A stretch of 45,923 bases of DNA. Source: Desulfamplus sp. (GTDB lineage: Bacteria; Desulfobacterota; Desulfobacteria; Desulfobacterales; Desulfobacteraceae). The translations under genes were made by a program, and so were the position numbers. The notes below the pieces were generated by a model, which searched no databases, had not been told where the DNA came from, and worked only from the letters and a program-made list of their open reading frames with translations. This document shows, piece by piece, positions 699 through 45,923 of the stretch; the first letter of the stretch is position 1; the number at the start of each line of letters is the position of its first letter. The DNA lies in the NCBI GenBank assembly GCA_015231705.1, contig JADGBC010000007.1:1-45923 (forward strand). The letters are read 5' to 3'.

Positions 699-1586
699 TT
701 AATCATTGCAGGCTTTCAGGCTGCCTGCTGACTTACTGCAATATCTGATTGCCTTGATGACTTCATCACGGCTGATCTCACCCTCCCGCACAATCTTGAC
801 CGGATCGCATGTGACATCAACAACAGTGGAGCCGATACCCCCTTTGAGGATTCCGCTGTCAAGTACCATATCAACATGGCTTAAAATATCAGGATCAAGC
901 ATAGCGATCTCCTTGCATCCAGCCTTACCAGAAATATTGGCACTGGTGCCGGTGATGGGGCTGCCTACCTGCCTGACTAATGATCTGGCAACCGGATGGC
1001 CTGGCATCCTGATACCAATCTTCCCTGTCCCTGCAGTAAGAGCCTTTGGCAAATCGTCAATAGCATTAAATACAAGGGTAATGTTTCCTGGCCAGAATTT
1101 TTCTATCAATGAGAGGGCAGAGGCTGTCAAATATCTCTTTACCATGAAAATACCCCCCTGATTTTCATAATTCGGGGGGGCATAATAATGGCCATGAAGG
1201 TTTGTTTTTTGTTTCAGAGGTGATCCATTCAACCCTGACTGAATCTCCTCTGACTGAATCTCCCCTGATTGAAACGATGATCTGTTTTCTGAAACAGGCT
1301 TTACAAGCAGATCAAGCTGGCTGATATCGTCGATAAGAACAAGAAGCGGATTGGTCAACGGTCTCTGCTTGATCTCAAACACCCGTTGTACTGCCGCCGG
1401 GTTCAAGGCATCAGCCGCAAGCCCGTAAAGACATTTTGCAGGAAAGACAACAACTCCGCCGACATGGATAATATTTGCAGCTTTTCTGATTATGTCAAAA
1501 CAGCGATCAGATTCAGATAAATCAAAACAGTGATCAGATGCAAACAAAGAGGCAATGTCAGCAACTTTATCCATCTTGCCACCCAT
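699..1586 (-). CDS. tsaC: L-threonylcarbamoyladenylate synthase (Sua5/YciO/YrdC family) with an internal insertion
   Basis: GGVVVFPAKCLYGLAADALNPAAVQRVFEIKQRP, KFWPGNITLVF, GIRMPGHPVARSLV and PITGTSANISG motifs. Confidence 0.9.
   Translation of the reverse strand: MGGKMDKVADIASLFASDHCFDLSESDRCFDIIRKAANIIHVGGVVVFPAKCLYGLAADALNPAAVQRVFEIKQRPLTNPLLVLIDDISQLDLLVKPVSENRSSFQSGEIQSEEIQSGLNGSPLKQKTNLHGHYYAPPNYENQGGIFMVKRYLTASALSLIEKFWPGNITLVFNAIDDLPKALTAGTGKIGIRMPGHPVARSLVRQVGSPITGTSANISGKAGCKEIAMLDPDILSHVDMVLDSGILKGGIGSTVVDVTCDPVKIVREGEISRDEVIKAIRYCSKSAGSLKACND
1138..1203 (+). repeat. Palindromic interspersed repeat (family C) inside tsaC
   Basis: TTTACCATGAAAATACCCCCCTGATTTTCATAATTCGGGG...GGCCATGAAGGTTT; similar to 16121-16190 (inverted), 32527-32590 and 36531-36594. 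Confidence 0.7.
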
Positions 1587-1591
1587 TCATC

Positions 1592-3358
1592 TTACCACCC
1601 AAGGGTTTCAGCCTTTTTATTGACCGTGTCTGCCATATCTTTTTTGTATTTATCAAGTTTTGCAGCAAGCTCGCAATCAGAGACAGAAAGTATCTGTGCT
1701 GCAAGCACTCCGGCATTTATGGCACCAGGTTTGCCAATAGCCAGCGTTGCCACAGGCACTCCAGGCGGCATCTGCACAGTTGAAAGCAGAGAATCTAAGC
1801 CCTGAAGAGCAGATGAGTCAATCGGAACACCAAGAACCGGCAACGTGGTATGGGCGGCAAGTACCCCTGCAAGGTGGGCAGCATGTCCTGCTCCGGCAAT
1901 AATAACTCCCATTCCTTTTTTACGAGCATTTTTTGCAAAGGCTTCCGCTCTTGCGGGAGTTCTGTGGGCAGATGCAACAGTCACTTCATATGGGATATCA
2001 AATTTTTTAAGTATCTTAAGTGCCTCTTCCATGACAGGCAGATCTGAATCACTTCCCATTATAACCCCAACTCTTGGTGGAACAGAGATTCTTGCAATGG
2101 CTTTGGCTCCAATGTCCTTGCGGTAAAAACAGCCTTTCCATGAAATCTTGTCGCATGCATCATATGCTTTATCCATAGCATCCTTAATGCCATCTCCAAG
2201 AGCTGTAACACCAAGGACTCTGCCTCCATTGGTTTTGATCTGCCCATTTTCAAGTGTTGTACCAGCATGAAATACAATCGTGTCTGAAATTGTGTCTGCC
2301 TGATCAAGACCCTTAATCACATCACCCTTTTCATAAGATCCTGGATATCCTCCTGCTGCCATTACAACGCACATGGTGCTTCTGGGGTCAATTTCGGTTT
2401 TGAATCTGTGGAGCGTGCCATCTACACAGGCCTCCATCAAAGGCACAAGATCACTTTTAAGCCGCATCAAAATAGGCTGTGTTTCTGGATCACCAAGTCT
2501 TACGTTGAATTCAAGAACCTTTATCTGCTCTTTATGGATCATAAGACCTGCATAGAGAACCCCTTTAAATGGAATTCCCTCGGCAGCCATAGCTTTTACT
2601 GCTGGAACCATGATCTCGTTCATTGCTCTTCTTCTGAGCATGAAATCAAGAACTGGTGCAGGAGAGTAAGCCCCCATTCCACCAGTGTTTGGACCCTGAT
2701 CATTATCAAATATCCTTTTGTGATCCTGGGAAGTTGGAAGTGGAAGAACAGTTTTGCCATCGGTCAGGGCGATAAATGAAGCCTCTTCACCCACCAGACA
2801 CTCCTCCACCACAACAAGAGATCCGGCATCTCCAAAAATACCGCCCTTCATCATGTCATCCAGTGCTTTAAAAGCCTCATCTTCAGACGCACAGACAAAA
2901 ACCCCTTTTCCAGATGCAAGGCCATCTGCCTTTACAACCAAAGGTGCACCAATCTGTTTTACATAGAGTTTTGCTCTCTCAATGTCAGTAAAAGATTTTC
3001 CTCTGGCTGTTGGGATGTTGTATTTTTCCATGATATTTTTGGCAAAAATTTTACTTGCCTCAAGTTGAGCCGCTTTTTTTGAAGGGCCAAATGCCTTTAA
3101 ACCCCTTGATTCAAAAAGATCGACAATTCCTGCTGCCAGTGGTGCTTCAGGCCCAACAACAGTAAGATCAATGTTCTTCTCCTTTGCAAATGCAGCAAGA
3201 GCCTCAATATCATCAGAACCTATCGCAATATTCTGTGCAAGAGTTGATGTGCCAGCGTTTCCAGGTGCACAATAAATCTTTTTTACAGCATCGCTTTTAG
3301 ATATTTTCCAGACAAGAGCGTGCTCTCTGCCGCCGCTTCCCACAACTAAAATGTTCAT
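1592..3358 (-). CDS. Fusion of phosphoribosylamine--glycine ligase (PurD) and N5-CAIR mutase (PurE)
   Basis: N-terminal MNILVVGSGGREHALVWK...GPNTGGMGAYSPAP...FNVRLGDPETQ (PurD), then VGVIMGSDSDLPVMEEA...ASAHRTP...GAGHAAHLAGVLAAHT (PurE), in one uninterrupted frame. Confidence 0.93.
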   Translation of the reverse strand: MNILVVGSGGREHALVWKISKSDAVKKIYCAPGNAGTSTLAQNIAIGSDDIEALAAFAKEKNIDLTVVGPEAPLAAGIVDLFESRGLKAFGPSKKAAQLEASKIFAKNIMEKYNIPTARGKSFTDIERAKLYVKQIGAPLVVKADGLASGKGVFVCASEDEAFKALDDMMKGGIFGDAGSLVVVEECLVGEEASFIALTDGKTVLPLPTSQDHKRIFDNDQGPNTGGMGAYSPAPVLDFMLRRRAMNEIMVPAVKAMAAEGIPFKGVLYAGLMIHKEQIKVLEFNVRLGDPETQPILMRLKSDLVPLMEACVDGTLHRFKTEIDPRSTMCVVMAAGGYPGSYEKGDVIKGLDQADTISDTIVFHAGTTLENGQIKTNGGRVLGVTALGDGIKDAMDKAYDACDKISWKGCFYRKDIGAKAIARISVPPRVGVIMGSDSDLPVMEEALKILKKFDIPYEVTVASAHRTPARAEAFAKNARKKGMGVIIAGAGHAAHLAGVLAAHTTLPVLGVPIDSSALQGLDSLLSTVQMPPGVPVATLAIGKPGAINAGVLAAQILSVSDCELAAKLDKYKKDMADTVNKKAETLGW

Positions 3359-4463: not shown

Positions 4464-4711
4464 TTTACCGTGAAAATGGATCACATTTTTATATTACTCA
4501 AAGTCAACACCTATCGATTCCTAAGCCTTGTCAACACTGTCAGAATCAGGATATTGAGGATGAAAGGATTTACAGGATCTAATCCTTTTTCATCCTGTAA
4601 ATCCTGAGCATCCTGATTCAGACAGATGCTAATATGCCCAGCAAACAATAGCAAGGTGTCGTTTTTGATATATTATCATGAAAATCATGAGGGGTATTTT
4701 TACGGTAAATT
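4464..4711 (-). repeat. Composite MITE-like palindromic element A, copy 1
   Basis: Ends ATTTTACCGTGAAAAT and ATTTTTACGGTAAATT are near-inverted. The core ...TGTCTGAATCAGGAT..ATTTACAGGATG...TCCTGTAAATCCTTTCATCC...ATCCTGATTC.. is shared with 15862-16062 in the opposite orientation. Confidence 0.75.
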
Positions 4712-15861: not shown

Positions 15862-16062
15862 CTCAAAAACGACACCTTGCTATCATGTACAGGCAAATCT
15901 CCATCTGTCTGAATCAGGATGGCCAGGATTTACAGGATGGACAAGATGTTTATCCTGTAAATCCTTTCATCCTGAATATCCTGATTCAGACTGTGTTGAC
16001 AAGGCCTTAGGAATCGATAGGTGTCGACTTTGAGTATAAATGTTTTGATCTCTTACGGTGCT
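15862..16062 (+). repeat. Composite palindromic element A, copy 2
   Basis: AAACGACACCTTGCTAT...CTGTCTGAATCAGGATGGCCAGGATTTACAGGATG...TCCTGTAAATCCTTTCATCC..GATTCAGAC.GTGTTGACAAGGCCTTAGGAATCGATAGGTGTCGACTTTGAGTATAAATG; reverse complement of much of 4464-4711. Confidence 0.8.
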
Positions 16063-16120: not shown

Positions 16121-16190
16121 AATAAACCTTCATGGCCTTTGTGTGATCACCCCGAATCATGAAAATAAGAATGTATTTTTATCGTAAAAT
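16121..16190 (-). repeat. Palindromic repeat family C, second copy
   Basis: Reverse complement TTTTACGATAAAAATACATTCTTATTTTCATGATTCGGGGTGATCACACAAAGGCCATGAAGGTTTATTT aligns along its length with 1138-1203. Confidence 0.7.
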
Positions 16191-18123: not shown

Positions 18124-21100
18124 TTATGACTTTAGAGATGTTTTCAATAGCCCCAATATCTCTAAAGCCTCTTTGAACTTGTATTTACCAATCAATCTGT
18201 CAAGCTCCTGAAGTTGGGAGTTGACATCCTCTGACCAGCTAAATGTGCCTGTCTCCTCCATAATATCCTTGCATGGTTTAGGCTTTTTCTTCTTTAAAAC
18301 AGGTTCAAGTTTCTGGATAAATTCGGTAAGTTGAGCCTTATCTCCCTGTTTTAATGATCCTTGATTTACAGCCTTTGCATCATCTGCCTTTACAGAGACA
18401 ACAGGGGAGAGTTTTTTAAGAATCATACGTAATGTTGTGTCAAACTGTTCTACTAAAGCCTTCAGAGTTATTTTGCCATGAAAATACACATCTTCATTTT
18501 CATCATTCGGGTAGGCAGAATCTGTCCATGAATGTTTATCTGTAGCAATACCTGATTTAAAACCTGATTTAAGAGCTGCTTCCAACTCTGCTGCTATTTT
18601 TTGTAAAACAGTTGCCCCGATTGTGCCAGAGACCCCTTTTACTGTATGGGCAAGTCTGACAGCAAGTTCCTGATCCTGTTTTTCAATCGCCTCCTGAATC
18701 TGCTGTGTAGTATTCTGATTGTCATCGTGAAATTTTTTAAGCAGGTTAATATAAAGTTTCCTGTTGCCGCTTACTCTTGAAAGACCAACATCTGTGTTGA
18801 TTCCATCTAAATAGGGGATCTCAATTTCAGCGGATGAGATCTCAATTTTCTGATTTATCTTTTTAGAGTATTCATCAGGCAGAGTACGATTTCCGGGTTG
18901 TATCCATTTTACTAATGCATTGAACATCACTGAAGGCTCTATGGGCTTTGTCACGTAGTCGTTCATGCCGATCTGAAGAACCTCTTCTCGTACTCCGCTC
19001 ATTGCGTCCGCTGTCATCGCTATTACAGGAAGCTTACTGCTCATGGCTGACAGTTCCAGATTGCGTTGAGCCTCTTCCCATCTTCTGATCTCTCTGGTTG
19101 CTGTCCGTCCGTCCATCACAGGCATCTGTAAATCCATCAGCACAACATCGTAAGGGTTATCCGCTGATGCCTTCACCATATCCACGCCAATTTGACCGTT
19201 GTTTGCTACATCAATATAAAAACCCTCATGACTCAACAGCTCAACTGCCAACTGCTGATTGATTGCATTATCCTCCACAAGAAGAATACGGGCACCTCGA
19301 ATATTGTCAAAGCCATCGGGCAGTTCAGTTTTGTTTATGCTTCTGTCAGTTTTTCTGTTCGTGGCCTTTCCAAAAACATTCATCACAGCATCAAATAAAA
19401 GAGATTGAGTTACTGGTTTAATCAAAAATCCATCAAGGCTTATCTCTTTTGTCTTCTCAACCAGATCTTCGCTGCCATGTGCTGTAACCATGACAATCCT
19501 GGGGATTCTGGTAAGGTCTGAGTCTTGCTGTATATGTCTTGAAGCCTCAATCCCGTCCATACCCGGCATCTCCCAATCCATAAACACGAGTCCATAAGGT
19601 TGCTGCTGACTTTGCTTGCTTGCAACAGTCTGGTTATCTTGCTCACTTGAAACAATTTGGGCTTCATGCTTGCCTGCAGCAGCTTGAGCTTTGATCATCT
19701 CGATAGCTTGTCTGCCTGAAGAGGCTGTATCAGCATCAAAACCTAATTGTTCAAGGTAGCTTTTCATAACCTGACGTGAGGCCTGGCTGTCATCAACTAC
19801 CAGCATTCTCATATTTTTAATATTTTCAGGCAGAACAAGAAGGTGTTTTTCAACCCTATCATGTCGTCCAAACCTGGCAGTAAACCAGAATGTGCTTCCC
19901 TCTCCCGCAATGCTGTCAACCCCAATCTCTCCGCCCATCCTCTCGGAAAGTTTTTTACTGATAGTCAGTCCAAGCCCAGTTCCGCCATATTTACGAGTAG
20001 TTGATGTATCTGCCTGCTGGAAGGATTGAAAGAGTTTGCCACGCTGCTCCTCAGTAAGCCCAATTCCTGTATCCTTGACTGCAAAGCGAATGAAAGCCGT
20101 ATTGTTATCTAATTGAAGCGGCGTGATAGATAGCGTTATTTCGCCTCTGTCTGTAAATTTTACGGCATTGTTGGCAAGATTGAGAAGAATTTGACCAAGA
20201 CGTAATGGATCTCCTGTTAACGCAGTTGGCACATCAGGATCTATTTCAAATATCAGCTCAAGACCTTTTTCATGTGCTTTAATAATTACTAAACTGCCAA
20301 GATTGTTCAATACATCACCCAAATCAAAGTCAACAGACTCTATATTGAGCTTGCCCGCCTCAATTTTAGAAAAATCAAGAATATCATTGATGATTCCAAG
20401 AAGATTTTGAGCTGAGAGATATACTTTGTTTATATAGTCTCTCTGTTTAGGGGAGAGGTCTGTCTTTAGTGATAAATGGCTCAGCCCTATAATCGCGTTC
20501 ATAGGAGTCCGTATCTCATGACTCATGTTGGCAAGAAAATCACTCTTGGCACGAGTTGCAGCCTCGGCAGAATTTTTGGCTATAAGAAGACTTGCTTTAG
20601 CAGCTTCTAACTCCTCTGTTCGCTGTAATACTTTTTCCTCTAAAGATTCAGTATATTCCTGAATTTTTGCAAACATAATATCAAAATATTTTTCAAGTAC
20701 ATTGATTTCATCACGTTCTATATTTGACTCTAATTTATAGCCTTGATCGTTCTCTGATGTAGAATCTTGCTCTTTTTGTTCAAAGTCGTGAAATACCGAT
20801 TGGCTTACCTTCTCAGTTAGTTTAACAAGCGGCTTTGTGATCTGTTTTGAAAGAAAAAGAACACCTAAAATACCAGCGATACTTGTAATAACTCCTAACA
20901 CAATAGAAATTATTATCATTGCTAAAACAGAATCATGTATATCTTTAGTAGAGGCAGCTCCTACAACATATATAGGGGCATTGGAGAGCTTTTGATAATC
21001 TACCAACATTGAACTGCACTGCATTTGAAATTTGGACTCTTCTTCAAAAGAGATTATCGAAAAATTACAATCACCCAATTTAGAGGAAGCAATCTTTTTG

Positions 21101-21852
21101 CTGGCAAAAAGAATCTGTTGATCCAACGACAGTGCCGCAAGCGTTATAAATCCACGTTTTCCAATCATCAATTTATCAAAGAATTTTTCATTTATCATTT
21201 GTAAATTGAGGACTATGACAAAAAATTTACCTGCCTGAATTATCCCATCTTCTGAAAATTGTCTGCTGATGATAAAAGCGGGGAAGTTCAATTCTGGTTC
21301 GATCTGATTCATATCAACTACAGAGGAGAATGGGGGATTACAGATTTTAATAACTGTTTGATTATACAGTTCATAATTTTTTAACTCTAATGGATTATCT
21401 TTATATACCACCTTACCATTATCAACTAATAGAATGTCTTCAATCCACAACTCTTTTGAGCGAATAGCTGTAAAAAAAGAGGATAATCCTGAAGATGAAA
21501 GTGCAGCCATTGCTGGATTATTTAAAAACACCTTAACAATTGGCTGCGTACTCCACAATTCTATTTTAGTTTCAATATCTTCATAAAATCTTTCAATATT
21601 TTCAACGCCATAATAAACATTTGATTTAAGCTGGTGATTAAGCTCCTCTTTTAAAGAACCTGCCTGATAAAAAGAGATAACAATGGTGAAAATAGAGATA
21701 ACACTAACAATCAAAGATGCAGAAAAAAATGCAAACTTGACCCCAAGAGATCGATTTTTCATAAAATTGACAACAAACCGATCTTTAATGTTCAAGCTAC
21801 CTTTCACAACTTTATTCTCCAAGAAGGCTGGTGATGAAAAGATTAAACTCAC
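18124..21852 (-). CDS. Hybrid histidine kinase (TM sensor, HAMP, HisKA, HATPase, REC, REC, Hpt)
   Basis: [92 protein letters not shown] start proposed, overlapping the upstream SBP gene. Confidence 0.93.
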
Positions 21853-26713: not shown

Positions 26714-26794
26714 ATTTTATGTGAAAGTCTTTTAAAATAGCTGTGATCATGAGACTTTCATTCTTCGTTGTGCCCATCAGGGCATGGCCGTTAT
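26714..26794 (+). repeat. REP-like repeat family B, copy b (inverted relative to copy a)
   Basis: ATTTTATGTGAAAGTCTTTTAAAATAGCTGTGATCATGAGACTTTCATTCTTCGTTGTGCCCATCAGGGCATGGCCGTTAT. Confidence 0.92.
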
Positions 26795-32960: not shown

Positions 32961-33041
32961 TTTTTATGTGAAAGTCTCTTGGATTGGCCGTAATTATAGG
33001 GCTTTCATTTTTCGTTGTGCCCATCAGGGCATGGCCGTTAT
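32961..33041 (+). repeat. REP-like repeat family B, copy c
   Basis: TTTTTATGTGAAAGTCTCTTGGATTGGCCGTAATTATAGGGCTTTCATTTTTCGTTGTGCCCATCAGGGCATGGCCGTTAT. Confidence 0.92.
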
Positions 33042-35989: not shown

Positions 35990-36102
35990 ACTTATTTTTC
36001 CTTTCTATATTGTAATTTTGTTGTAGTTTTGATGAATATTTTTACCGTGAAAACAACCCTCATTTTTATATTTGGAGCTGATTAATACACAATCATTCCC
36101 GT

Positions 36103-36504
36103 TTAACGAAAAAACCCCATTGCAATATCAGAGATTGCATTTATTACAGGCTGGGCAAACCTGCTTCCATTACGGCGGCGTGAGCCCACTGCACCTGCAC
36201 CTATGATAAAACCCACTCCCGCCCCTACACCTAATGATATAAGAATTGTCTTACCCGGATTTTTTTTGCCATAATTTATGGCTATTTCATAAGTTTCACT
36301 TACAACCCTGGATGTTTTATCGTAAGTATCGCTTACAGCTTCGGATGTCTTGTCATAAGCGTTACTTATTGCTTCTGATGTTTTATCATAAGTATCACTT
36401 GCCGCAGCTCCCGCTTTTTCGAGAATCTCTGCACCTTTTTCCATGGTGCTCTGAGGATCAGCACTATGTTTGTGGGTCTTGTTTTTGTTTTTTTCGACGT
36501 CCAT
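36103..36504 (-). CDS. YtxH/DUF883-like membrane protein with tandem 11-residue repeats
   Basis: ASDTYDKTSEA-ISNAYDKTSEA-VSDTYDKTSRV-VSETYEIAINY, then GKKNPGKTILISLGVGAGVGFIIGAGAVG. Start at MDVEKNKNK after AAGGAGAATAAC. Confidence 0.75.
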   Translation of the reverse strand: MDVEKNKNKTHKHSADPQSTMEKGAEILEKAGAAASDTYDKTSEAISNAYDKTSEAVSDTYDKTSRVVSETYEIAINYGKKNPGKTILISLGVGAGVGFIIGAGAVGSRRRNGSRFAQPVINAISDIAMGFFR

Positions 36505-36530
36505 GTTATTCTCCTTAAGAAAGCTAAATT

Positions 36531-36594
36531 TTACCGTGAAAACATATATTCTGATTTTCATGGTCGGGGGTGGTCGAATCCCGGCCATGATAGC
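36531..36594 (+). repeat. Palindromic repeat family C
   Basis: TTACCGTGAAAACATATATTCTGATTTTCATGGTCGGGGGTGGTCGAATCCCGGCCATGATAGC. Confidence 0.6.
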
Positions 36595-37062
36595 TTAACT
36601 GTCAATGATATCTGAACTACATAATGTCTGCGGTTGAGACCCTTGATGATAGACTGACGTATCTGTTGAGATTATATTGTTTATCAAGGCTGTGGCAGCC
36701 CTGGTGGCAATACCCAGAAGGGTCATCCTGACAAGGCCAGGTCCACTGTTTCGGATAAGCATACCGTCAAGTGAATCACGAACCTCTTCGGCAATGGAAC
36801 CCATGATTCGCTCCATGGGAGTGGCACGTTTTATGAACAGCCCTGATGCAAGATAGCCAATCCCAGCAGCACCCCCTATTGCCAAGTATGGGTAATCTCT
36901 TACGTATCCACGCCAATCTAATTTTTCTATGATACGCTCACTTATCTGCTCGACTGTCTGGGAAATCTCATCCTCTCCCTTTGCTATATCCTGACGTATA
37001 TCCCTGGAACTTCGCTCAGAATCCGATCCCTTTGTCTTATTTGGATATTCTCTTCCCAACAT
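36595..37062 (-). CDS. DUF883/YqjD-like membrane-associated protein
   Basis: Charged helical N-terminus then DWRGYVRDYPYLAIGGAAGIGYLASGLFIKR. Confidence 0.6.
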   Translation of the reverse strand: MLGREYPNKTKGSDSERSSRDIRQDIAKGEDEISQTVEQISERIIEKLDWRGYVRDYPYLAIGGAAGIGYLASGLFIKRATPMERIMGSIAEEVRDSLDGMLIRNSGPGLVRMTLLGIATRAATALINNIISTDTSVYHQGSQPQTLCSSDIIDS

Positions 37063-37224
37063 TCTTTTTCTCCCTTAATTACCTTGAAAATGGATCACAT
37101 TTTTATATTAGGGGGTGATCGATACGCAATTGTGTCCGTTTAGGCTCCTAACTCTTTTACATGTTTGACAACGGTAATATTTCATGTCTCAAGAATCAGT
37201 ATGTCATGTTTCAAAGATCTTTTT

Positions 37225-37871: not shown

Positions 37872-37952
37872 TTTTTATGTGAAAGTCTATTGAATCGGCA
37901 GTAATTATAGGACTTTCATTTTTCGTTGTGCCCATCAGGGCATGGCCGTTAT
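37872..37952 (+). repeat. REP-like repeat family B, copy d
   Basis: TTTTTATGTGAAAGTCTATTGAATCGGCAGTAATTATAGGACTTTCATTTTTCGTTGTGCCCATCAGGGCATGGCCGTTAT. Confidence 0.93.
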
Positions 37953-40138: not shown

Positions 40139-40219
40139 GTTTTATGTGAAAGTCTTTTAAAATAGCTGTAATCATGAGACTTTTGTTCTTCGTTGTGCCC
40201 ACCAGGGCATGAGCGTTAT
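40139..40219 (+). repeat. REP-like repeat family B, copy e
   Basis: TTTTATGTGAAAGTCTTTTAAAATAGCTGTAATCATGAGACTTTTGTTCTTCGTTGTGCCCACCAGGGCATGAGCGTTAT. Confidence 0.9.
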
Positions 40220-45883: not shown

Positions 45884-45923
45884 GTTTCGTTCTTAGTTGT
45901 GCCCATCAGGGCATGGCCGTTAT
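45884..45923 (+). repeat. REP-like repeat family B, copy f (3' half)
   Basis: GTTTCGTTCTTAGTTGTGCCCATCAGGGCATGGCCGTTAT; the window ends exactly at the repeat terminus. Confidence 0.88.

Follow-up and report, generated by a model that had tools for sequence, protein, structure and literature searches.

The tsaC gene of Desulfamplus sp. encodes more residues than its orthologues do, and the question raised by this locus is where the additional stretch came from and whether it does anything for the enzyme. The gene lies in a 45,923-nt stretch of DNA, which was analysed as a whole and is referred to here as the window. It had been predicted from the window alone that part of the TsaC reading frame consists of a palindromic repeat, comparable in principle to the Rickettsia palindromic elements (RPE), which has been domesticated there. 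The features on which the question turns are the following.

699 to 1586, minus strand: tsaC, L-threonylcarbamoyladenylate synthase (TsaC/YrdC type), 295 aa (PF01300, E 3e-50; TIGR00057)
About 1137 to 1283, minus strand: in-frame insertion of 147 nt, residues 102-150 (49 residues), without counterpart in 27 orthologues
1138 to 1205, minus strand: copy of a dispersed repeat, subtype gamma, 68 nt (ACAAACC to GGTAAA), read NLHGHYYAPPNYENQGGIFMV (83 bits, E 7e-18)
1153 to 1158, minus strand: run of six G in the orientation of the gene, one base more than in the other copies in an alignment of 30
1206 to 1283, minus strand: remainder of the insertion, unique DNA with no other significant copy in the genome
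1233 to 1273, minus strand: 15-nt tandem repeat, 2.7 copies (QSGEI/QSEEI/QSG), inside the N-terminal half of the insertion

The host ORF scored 174.3 bits against TIGR00057, passing the curated cut-off of 123.2; this model by itself does not separate TsaC from YciO. The KxR...SxN signature, which marks TsaC/YrdC and is missing from YciO (PMC3223725, PMC10321239), was intact as K73-Q-R75 and T214-S215-A-N217, and the PF01300 match was broken into two stretches by the insert. In the genome examined (3.6 Mb, approximately 75% complete), ORF 699-1586 was the only KxR/SxN TsaC found. The sole other TsaC/YciO-type gene found (L333) is YciO-like, with 158 bits to YciO and 62 to YrdC, and reads STSAS at the SxN position, without an SxN. 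Since the signature is intact and the sole paralogue is YciO-like, tsaC probably encodes the t6A enzyme of the cell, as far as sequence from an incomplete genome can indicate. The earlier description of the enzyme as essential is plausible on the same grounds, but has not been shown; the idea that a second Sua5-family gene makes tsaC redundant was weakened, since that gene is YciO-like. The best named relative of TsaC was a deltaproteobacterial metagenome-assembled genome, and the deltaproteobacterial placement used here depends on that match alone. Directly upstream of tsaC, a 588-aa ORF (window 1592-3358, minus strand) resembles, by eye, a PurD-PurE fusion.

A search with TsaC matched 38 of 39 relatives at E <= 0.001, and full-length alignment was possible for 27 of these orthologues, whose relatedness ranges from genus to order level. 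All 27 lacked the insert, which sits between 'KPVSE' and 'KRYLTASAL'. In three relatives (G005, G006, and G008), 'KPISE' joins 'KQLIS' directly with nothing at the insert site, and the difference in length between tsaC and its counterparts in G005 and G008 at the DNA level is 147 nt. The nearest genome, G003, is incomplete and tsaC was not found in it, which leaves no close DNA-level relative for this site and makes the junctions less sharp than those of the KR-domain gene described below. The predicted extent (1138-1295, approximately 45 residues) thus marked a real insert, but was a few codons too wide on the N-terminal side and slightly short in residues.

The insert occupies the loop that joins the helix following 'LIDDISQLD' to the one preceding 'FWPGNITLVF'. 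In a predicted structure of TsaC, residues 100-151 had pLDDT values below 50 and no secondary structure, between helices at 88-93 and 155-164, although the model was weak overall (mean pLDDT 58, five sequences). A TsaC orthologue from the same family (L037, genome G020) carries an unrelated, independent insertion of approximately 40 residues, located some ten residues further upstream. Because this different insertion is near the same place, the loop is, judging from the sequences compared, tolerant of insertion. Another orthologue (L049, genome G002) has an in-frame GGMSS repeat with a 15-nt unit upstream, possibly an N-terminal extension.

An insertion in such a loop could have arisen by chance, through local duplication and drift, with any likeness to a repeat being accidental. 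The short tandem repeat predicted for the first half, and found there with a 15-nt unit, would fit such an origin, as would the different insertion in the same TsaC region of G020. For positions 1138-1205, this explanation was refuted by matches to other copies at E 1e-16 to 1e-19, by the 83-bit score with the family model, and by boundaries that coincide with those of the family; as an account of the insert it is hardly credible. It is still the best explanation for the adjoining DNA, which by length amounts to 147-63 = 84 nt, also a multiple of three. No other genomic copy of the N-terminal half was significant (best other match E = 0.16), and on that basis it was ruled out that a single repeat makes up the entire insert.

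The second half had been predicted to be a genomic repeat, and this was borne out: region 1138-1205 matched 41 further places in the same genome by BLAST (77-89% identity, E 1e-19 to 2e-6), and at least 150 places were detected with a covariance model constructed from 30 copies. Both intergenic copies that the original prediction had named in the window were confirmed and head the list below.

16122 to 16188, plus strand: gamma copy, no long ORF across it (78 bits)
36530 to 36598, minus strand: copy between ORFs 36103-36588 and 36595-37062 (51 bits with model R2)
18472 to 18539, minus strand: coding-type copy in a hybrid histidine kinase, residues approximately 1105-1127, just past the Hpt domain (55.7 bits, E 2e-16)
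18124 to 21852, minus strand: host ORF of the preceding copy, a HisKA/HATPase_c/Response_reg/Hpt protein of 1242 aa
32529 to 32595, minus strand: weaker family copy (28.7 bits, E 5e-8)
37079 to 37142, minus strand: weaker family copy (23.9 bits, E 2e-6)
36041 to 36082, minus strand: partial copy, 3' end of the element (20.6 bits, E 2e-5)

Other repeats were also present in the window. A separate dispersed family of about 81 nt, TTTTTATGTGAAAGTC...GTTGTGCCCATCAGGGCATGGCCGTTAT, occurs at 26714-26794, 32961-33041, 37872-37952, 40139-40219, and 45885-45923, and adjoins some copies of the hairpin element in other contigs (e.g. L002, L008). Positions 4525-4638 and 15892-16005 form an inverted pair of 114 nt (86%) containing CTGTCTGAATCAGGAT...CTGTAAATCCT, yet another repeat family.

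Copies of the hairpin element fell into three subtypes, distinguished by net length with one TAAA counted. Gamma, the majority subtype (consensus ATAAACCTTCATGGCCATTATGCGGCCACCCCGAATTATGAAAATCAGGGGGCATTTTCATGGTAAA), had a net length of 62 nt in 41 of 63 parsed copies; alpha adds 63 nt and is read KRTWPDLATPNNENETVHFHGK / NKRTWPDLATPNNENETVHFHGK; beta adds 60 nt and is read KRSWPDSATPDHEKQICFHGK. Since 63 and 60 are multiples of three and 62 is not, alpha and beta keep a reading frame by this sequence-based measure, whereas gamma would shift it. The TsaC copy belongs to gamma, which is otherwise almost restricted to non-coding DNA. Its extra G brings the net insertion to 63 nt and changes the end of the reading from ...GAFSW and a stop to ...GGIFMVK.

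The element is 60-67 nt long, and its best inverted repeat is an internal stem of 8-9 bp. Its ends, TAAAC... and ...GGTAAA, are not inverted, so there are no terminal inverted repeats. TAAA flanks nearly all copies on both sides, and the single clean empty site has TCAA at that position; duplication of TAAA and an element tipped with TAAA both fit these flanks. Predicted RNA folding was moderately better than that of shuffled sequences for alpha, which forms two hairpins (z about -2), and for the TsaC copy (z about -2.6). No covariation supported the hairpins (0 of 12 pairs changed on both sides), and an Rfam scan of 1000-1700 returned nothing above chance. No intact Y1 transposase (PF01797) was found in the 75%-complete genome, only one degenerate, interrupted fragment of 69 aa, which leaves mobilisation by a RAYT unsupported. 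With no transposase identified, the inference that the element is mobile rests on its copy number and on the empty sites.

These properties could also describe a primarily regulatory or REP-type intergenic element, acting in mRNA stability or termination or mobilised by a RAYT, whose genic copies are chance debris in genes undergoing loss. When 142 copies were mapped against ORFs, the majority (79) overlapped no long ORF, in another relative (G007) short frames hold almost all of over 50 beta-like copies, and the folding advantage over shuffles points the same way. A further set of copies lies deep inside long ORFs. Against the debris reading, the host genes are intact for hundreds of codons on either side, with their domains kept and, in TsaC, the catalytic residues retained; decay would also have given frame-shifting and reversed copies; and the only trace of a RAYT-type enzyme is the degenerate fragment. 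We consider this reading as a whole very unlikely.

At least 17 genes besides tsaC carry alpha or beta copies in frame (18 copies), and a 23-residue peptide query matched 55 places in the genome. Most of these 17 host genes have a clear Pfam identity. They include enzymes (a glycogen debranching enzyme, UbiD, TruA, MnmA, HypF, an FMN oxidoreductase with a Usp domain, and a phosphorylase), an ETF-alpha protein, a radical SAM/B12 protein, a HemN/Elp3-like radical SAM protein, a YkgJ-like protein, MauE, an LPG-synthase-C protein, a PIG-L/glycosyltransferase protein, a HEAT-repeat protein, and the hybrid histidine kinase of the window; a KR-domain protein hosts two copies, one alpha and one beta. 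The copy in the HemN/Elp3-like gene (L232:2382-2466) belongs to alpha; an internal duplication has enlarged it to 90 nt, and it is still in frame.

For nine hosts compared with their orthologues in sister genomes (UbiD, the KR protein, HypF, the glycogen debranching enzyme, the radical SAM/B12 protein, TruA, the nucleoside phosphorylase, the YkgJ-like protein, and MnmA), the peptide was missing from the orthologues. It was likewise missing from E. coli TruA (1dj0) and from MnmA of known structure. The KR gene provided a clean empty site, CCATAAA[TAAACGG...CATGGTAAA]CAAACAAC versus CCATAAATCAACAAACAAC in G003, a net gain of 63 nt; the KR protein of G003 is about 82% identical.

All 18 alpha or beta copies that lie deep in an identifiable gene, with at least 40 open codons on both sides, run along the gene in frame +1. 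A further deep case (L303), in an ORF without a recognised domain, is read in another frame. Copies close to the start of an ORF (L027, L099, L111, L134, L227, L224, and L240) were left out of this set, because the start codon assigned upstream of them could be spurious. Four frames of the alpha consensus contain no stop, so that the choice of frame is not dictated by openness alone. With four frames equally likely, the binomial probability of single-frame use is about 1e-9, a value that should be taken as an order of magnitude only, as the copies are related and gene survival acts as a filter. TsaC does not share this frame: its copy is read in +2, the others in +1.

The shared frame of the alpha and beta hosts could indicate functional domestication, in which the peptide was recruited because it enhances or regulates its hosts, TsaC included, for example by contacting tRNA or binding a partner. 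Several hosts do act on tRNA (TsaC, TruA, and MnmA), and the change in length of the TsaC copy keeps its gene open. Yet UbiD, HypF, the KR protein, the glycogen debranching enzyme, and the hybrid kinase are unrelated in function, orthologues function without the peptide, and TsaC, reading another frame, carries a different peptide from the other hosts. The inserted peptide is also predicted to be disordered, and gene survival alone suffices to explain the frame rule. Domestication is therefore unlikely in our judgement. It is undemonstrated, and the reading of the insert with the best support is that a loop tolerates it neutrally.

In the original prediction, then, a dispersed repeat inside a protein was correctly recognised, whereas useful function remains unshown and neutral tolerance explains everything seen. 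The claim that a repeat is read in frame in TsaC, as in RPE, held: the relatives lack the insert, the alignments are highly significant, and in-frame copies occur in other genes. It would have failed had orthologues shared the insert or had the repeat alignments lacked significance; no aligned orthologue does share it, and E values reach 1e-19.

We propose that a non-autonomous hairpin element spread between and inside genes, that one of its copies forms the second half of the TsaC insert, and that it is kept, as a nearly neutral addition, where frame and loop allow; we regard this as very probable. The element, with two small hairpins, TAAA on either side, and a net length of 60-63 nt, would have multiplied through the genome by means of an unidentified enzyme, landing between and inside genes at or beside TAAA. 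Copies that break genes would be lost, and those of 60 or 63 nt in loops may persist, survival inside a gene needing both a kept frame and a loop that accepts a hydrophilic, probably disordered peptide of 20-23 residues. In TsaC, a gamma copy with one additional G (63 nt) would have restored the phase and removed the terminal stop, and the enzyme would be translated with a neutral or nearly neutral appendage. Directly observed are the identity of the repeat, its copy number, the empty sites in relatives, the lengths of the copies, and their bias in frame and orientation. Active spread, and the translation, solubility, activity, and neutrality of TsaC, are inferred without expression data, as is translation of the alpha and beta insert peptides and of NLHGHYYAPPNYENQGGIFMVK.

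A DNA search found the repeat family in 5 of 10 genomes of the genus. With the coding-type model, matches at E <= 1e-6 came from only 4 of the 292 genomes sampled in the order, two of them outside the genus with one match each; these counts are lower bounds, as 17 candidates were scored per genome. G001, G002, and G007 have in-frame copies of their own in recognised genes (Mur ligase, PPDK-type, chorismate-binding/aminotransferase, CAAX protease, and kinase genes), and frame +2 cases exist in G001 and G002. In-frame insertion is thus, by the sequences available, a habit of the repeat family that is strongest in this genome. Related elements were also seen in other arrangements. Four tandem copies in frame +2 form a protein repeat in a histidine kinase of G002 (L196:1312-1568), and single elements TAAACGCTCATGG...CCCCCGATYATGAAAAT...TTTTCACGGTAAA occur in two other families of the order (L313, genome G226; L314, genome G136), the L314 copy with an additional hairpin inside.

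The closest parallels are RPE-1 to RPE-8 and others (Ogata et al. 2000, as presented in PMC2229807, PMC3767692, and PMC10969869). RPE also form a dispersed hairpin repeat found between genes and in frame in many unrelated conserved genes, with a preferred reading, orthologues free of the insert (here for nine hosts and TsaC), and enzymes of tRNA metabolism among the hosts. Gmk of Rickettsia was shown to be translated with its insert and active (PMC2229807). For a further trait of the RPE type, inserts placed in solvent-exposed loops, the only evidence here is the weak TsaC model, in which the insert is predicted to be disordered between two helices. RPE differ in having one long stem-loop of 105-146 bp with terminal inverted repeats (PMC2229807), compared to 60-67 nt, two small hairpins, and TAAA bounds here, and in belonging to an obligate intracellular alphaproteobacterium rather than a probably deltaproteobacterial lineage of ordinary genome size. 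The Wolbachia elements (WPE; cited in PMC4224334 and PMC3767692) are likewise palindromic repeats inserted in frame without inactivating the gene, but are longer regions and belong to Rickettsiales. By analogy, the Desulfamplus element works like RPE and WPE without meeting the RPE membership criterion of length and terminal inverted repeats, although no RPE sequence was compared.

Other short repeats share some of these traits. ERIC/RU-1, RU-2, RU-3, and the 107-bp Correia element (PMC2229807, PMC2759123) are MITE-like repeats with open frames, some fused in frame to genes, and the Correia case offers a parallel in its intragenic open-frame and intergenic stop-rich subtypes (PMC2229807, PMC2759123). 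They are 100-170 bp long with terminal inverted repeats, TA target duplications, and comparatively few insertions in conserved genes; the lack of terminal inverted repeats also separates the Desulfamplus element from MITEs. REP/BIME sequences with RAYT (PMC3733652) are high-copy short hairpin repeats that are sometimes clustered, but REPs are extragenic (PMC3733652), and no intact RAYT was seen here. A partial literature search found no description of such elements in Desulfobacterota.

It is possible, though short of probable, that the genus harbours a coding-compatible mobile lineage in which alpha and beta have been shaped, by a length that is a multiple of three and an open hydrophilic frame, to spread both within and between genes. 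This would have happened independently of Rickettsiales and away from the setting of a reduced intracellular genome, and the peptide may in places be used. The in-frame hairpin repeats of Rickettsia and Wolbachia could be taken as a side effect of weak selection in reduced intracellular genomes. A comparable and apparently independent case, in a probably deltaproteobacterial genus with multi-megabase genomes, allows that explanation to be told apart from others: each insert is missing from close relatives, and some relatives have no member of the family at all. TsaC, TruA, MnmA, UbiD, and HypF provide natural pairs of enzymes with and without an insert, and inserted peptides of this kind may pass for domains in annotation. 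The pattern follows a simple length rule, in which genes tolerate 60 and 63 nt, not 62 nt.
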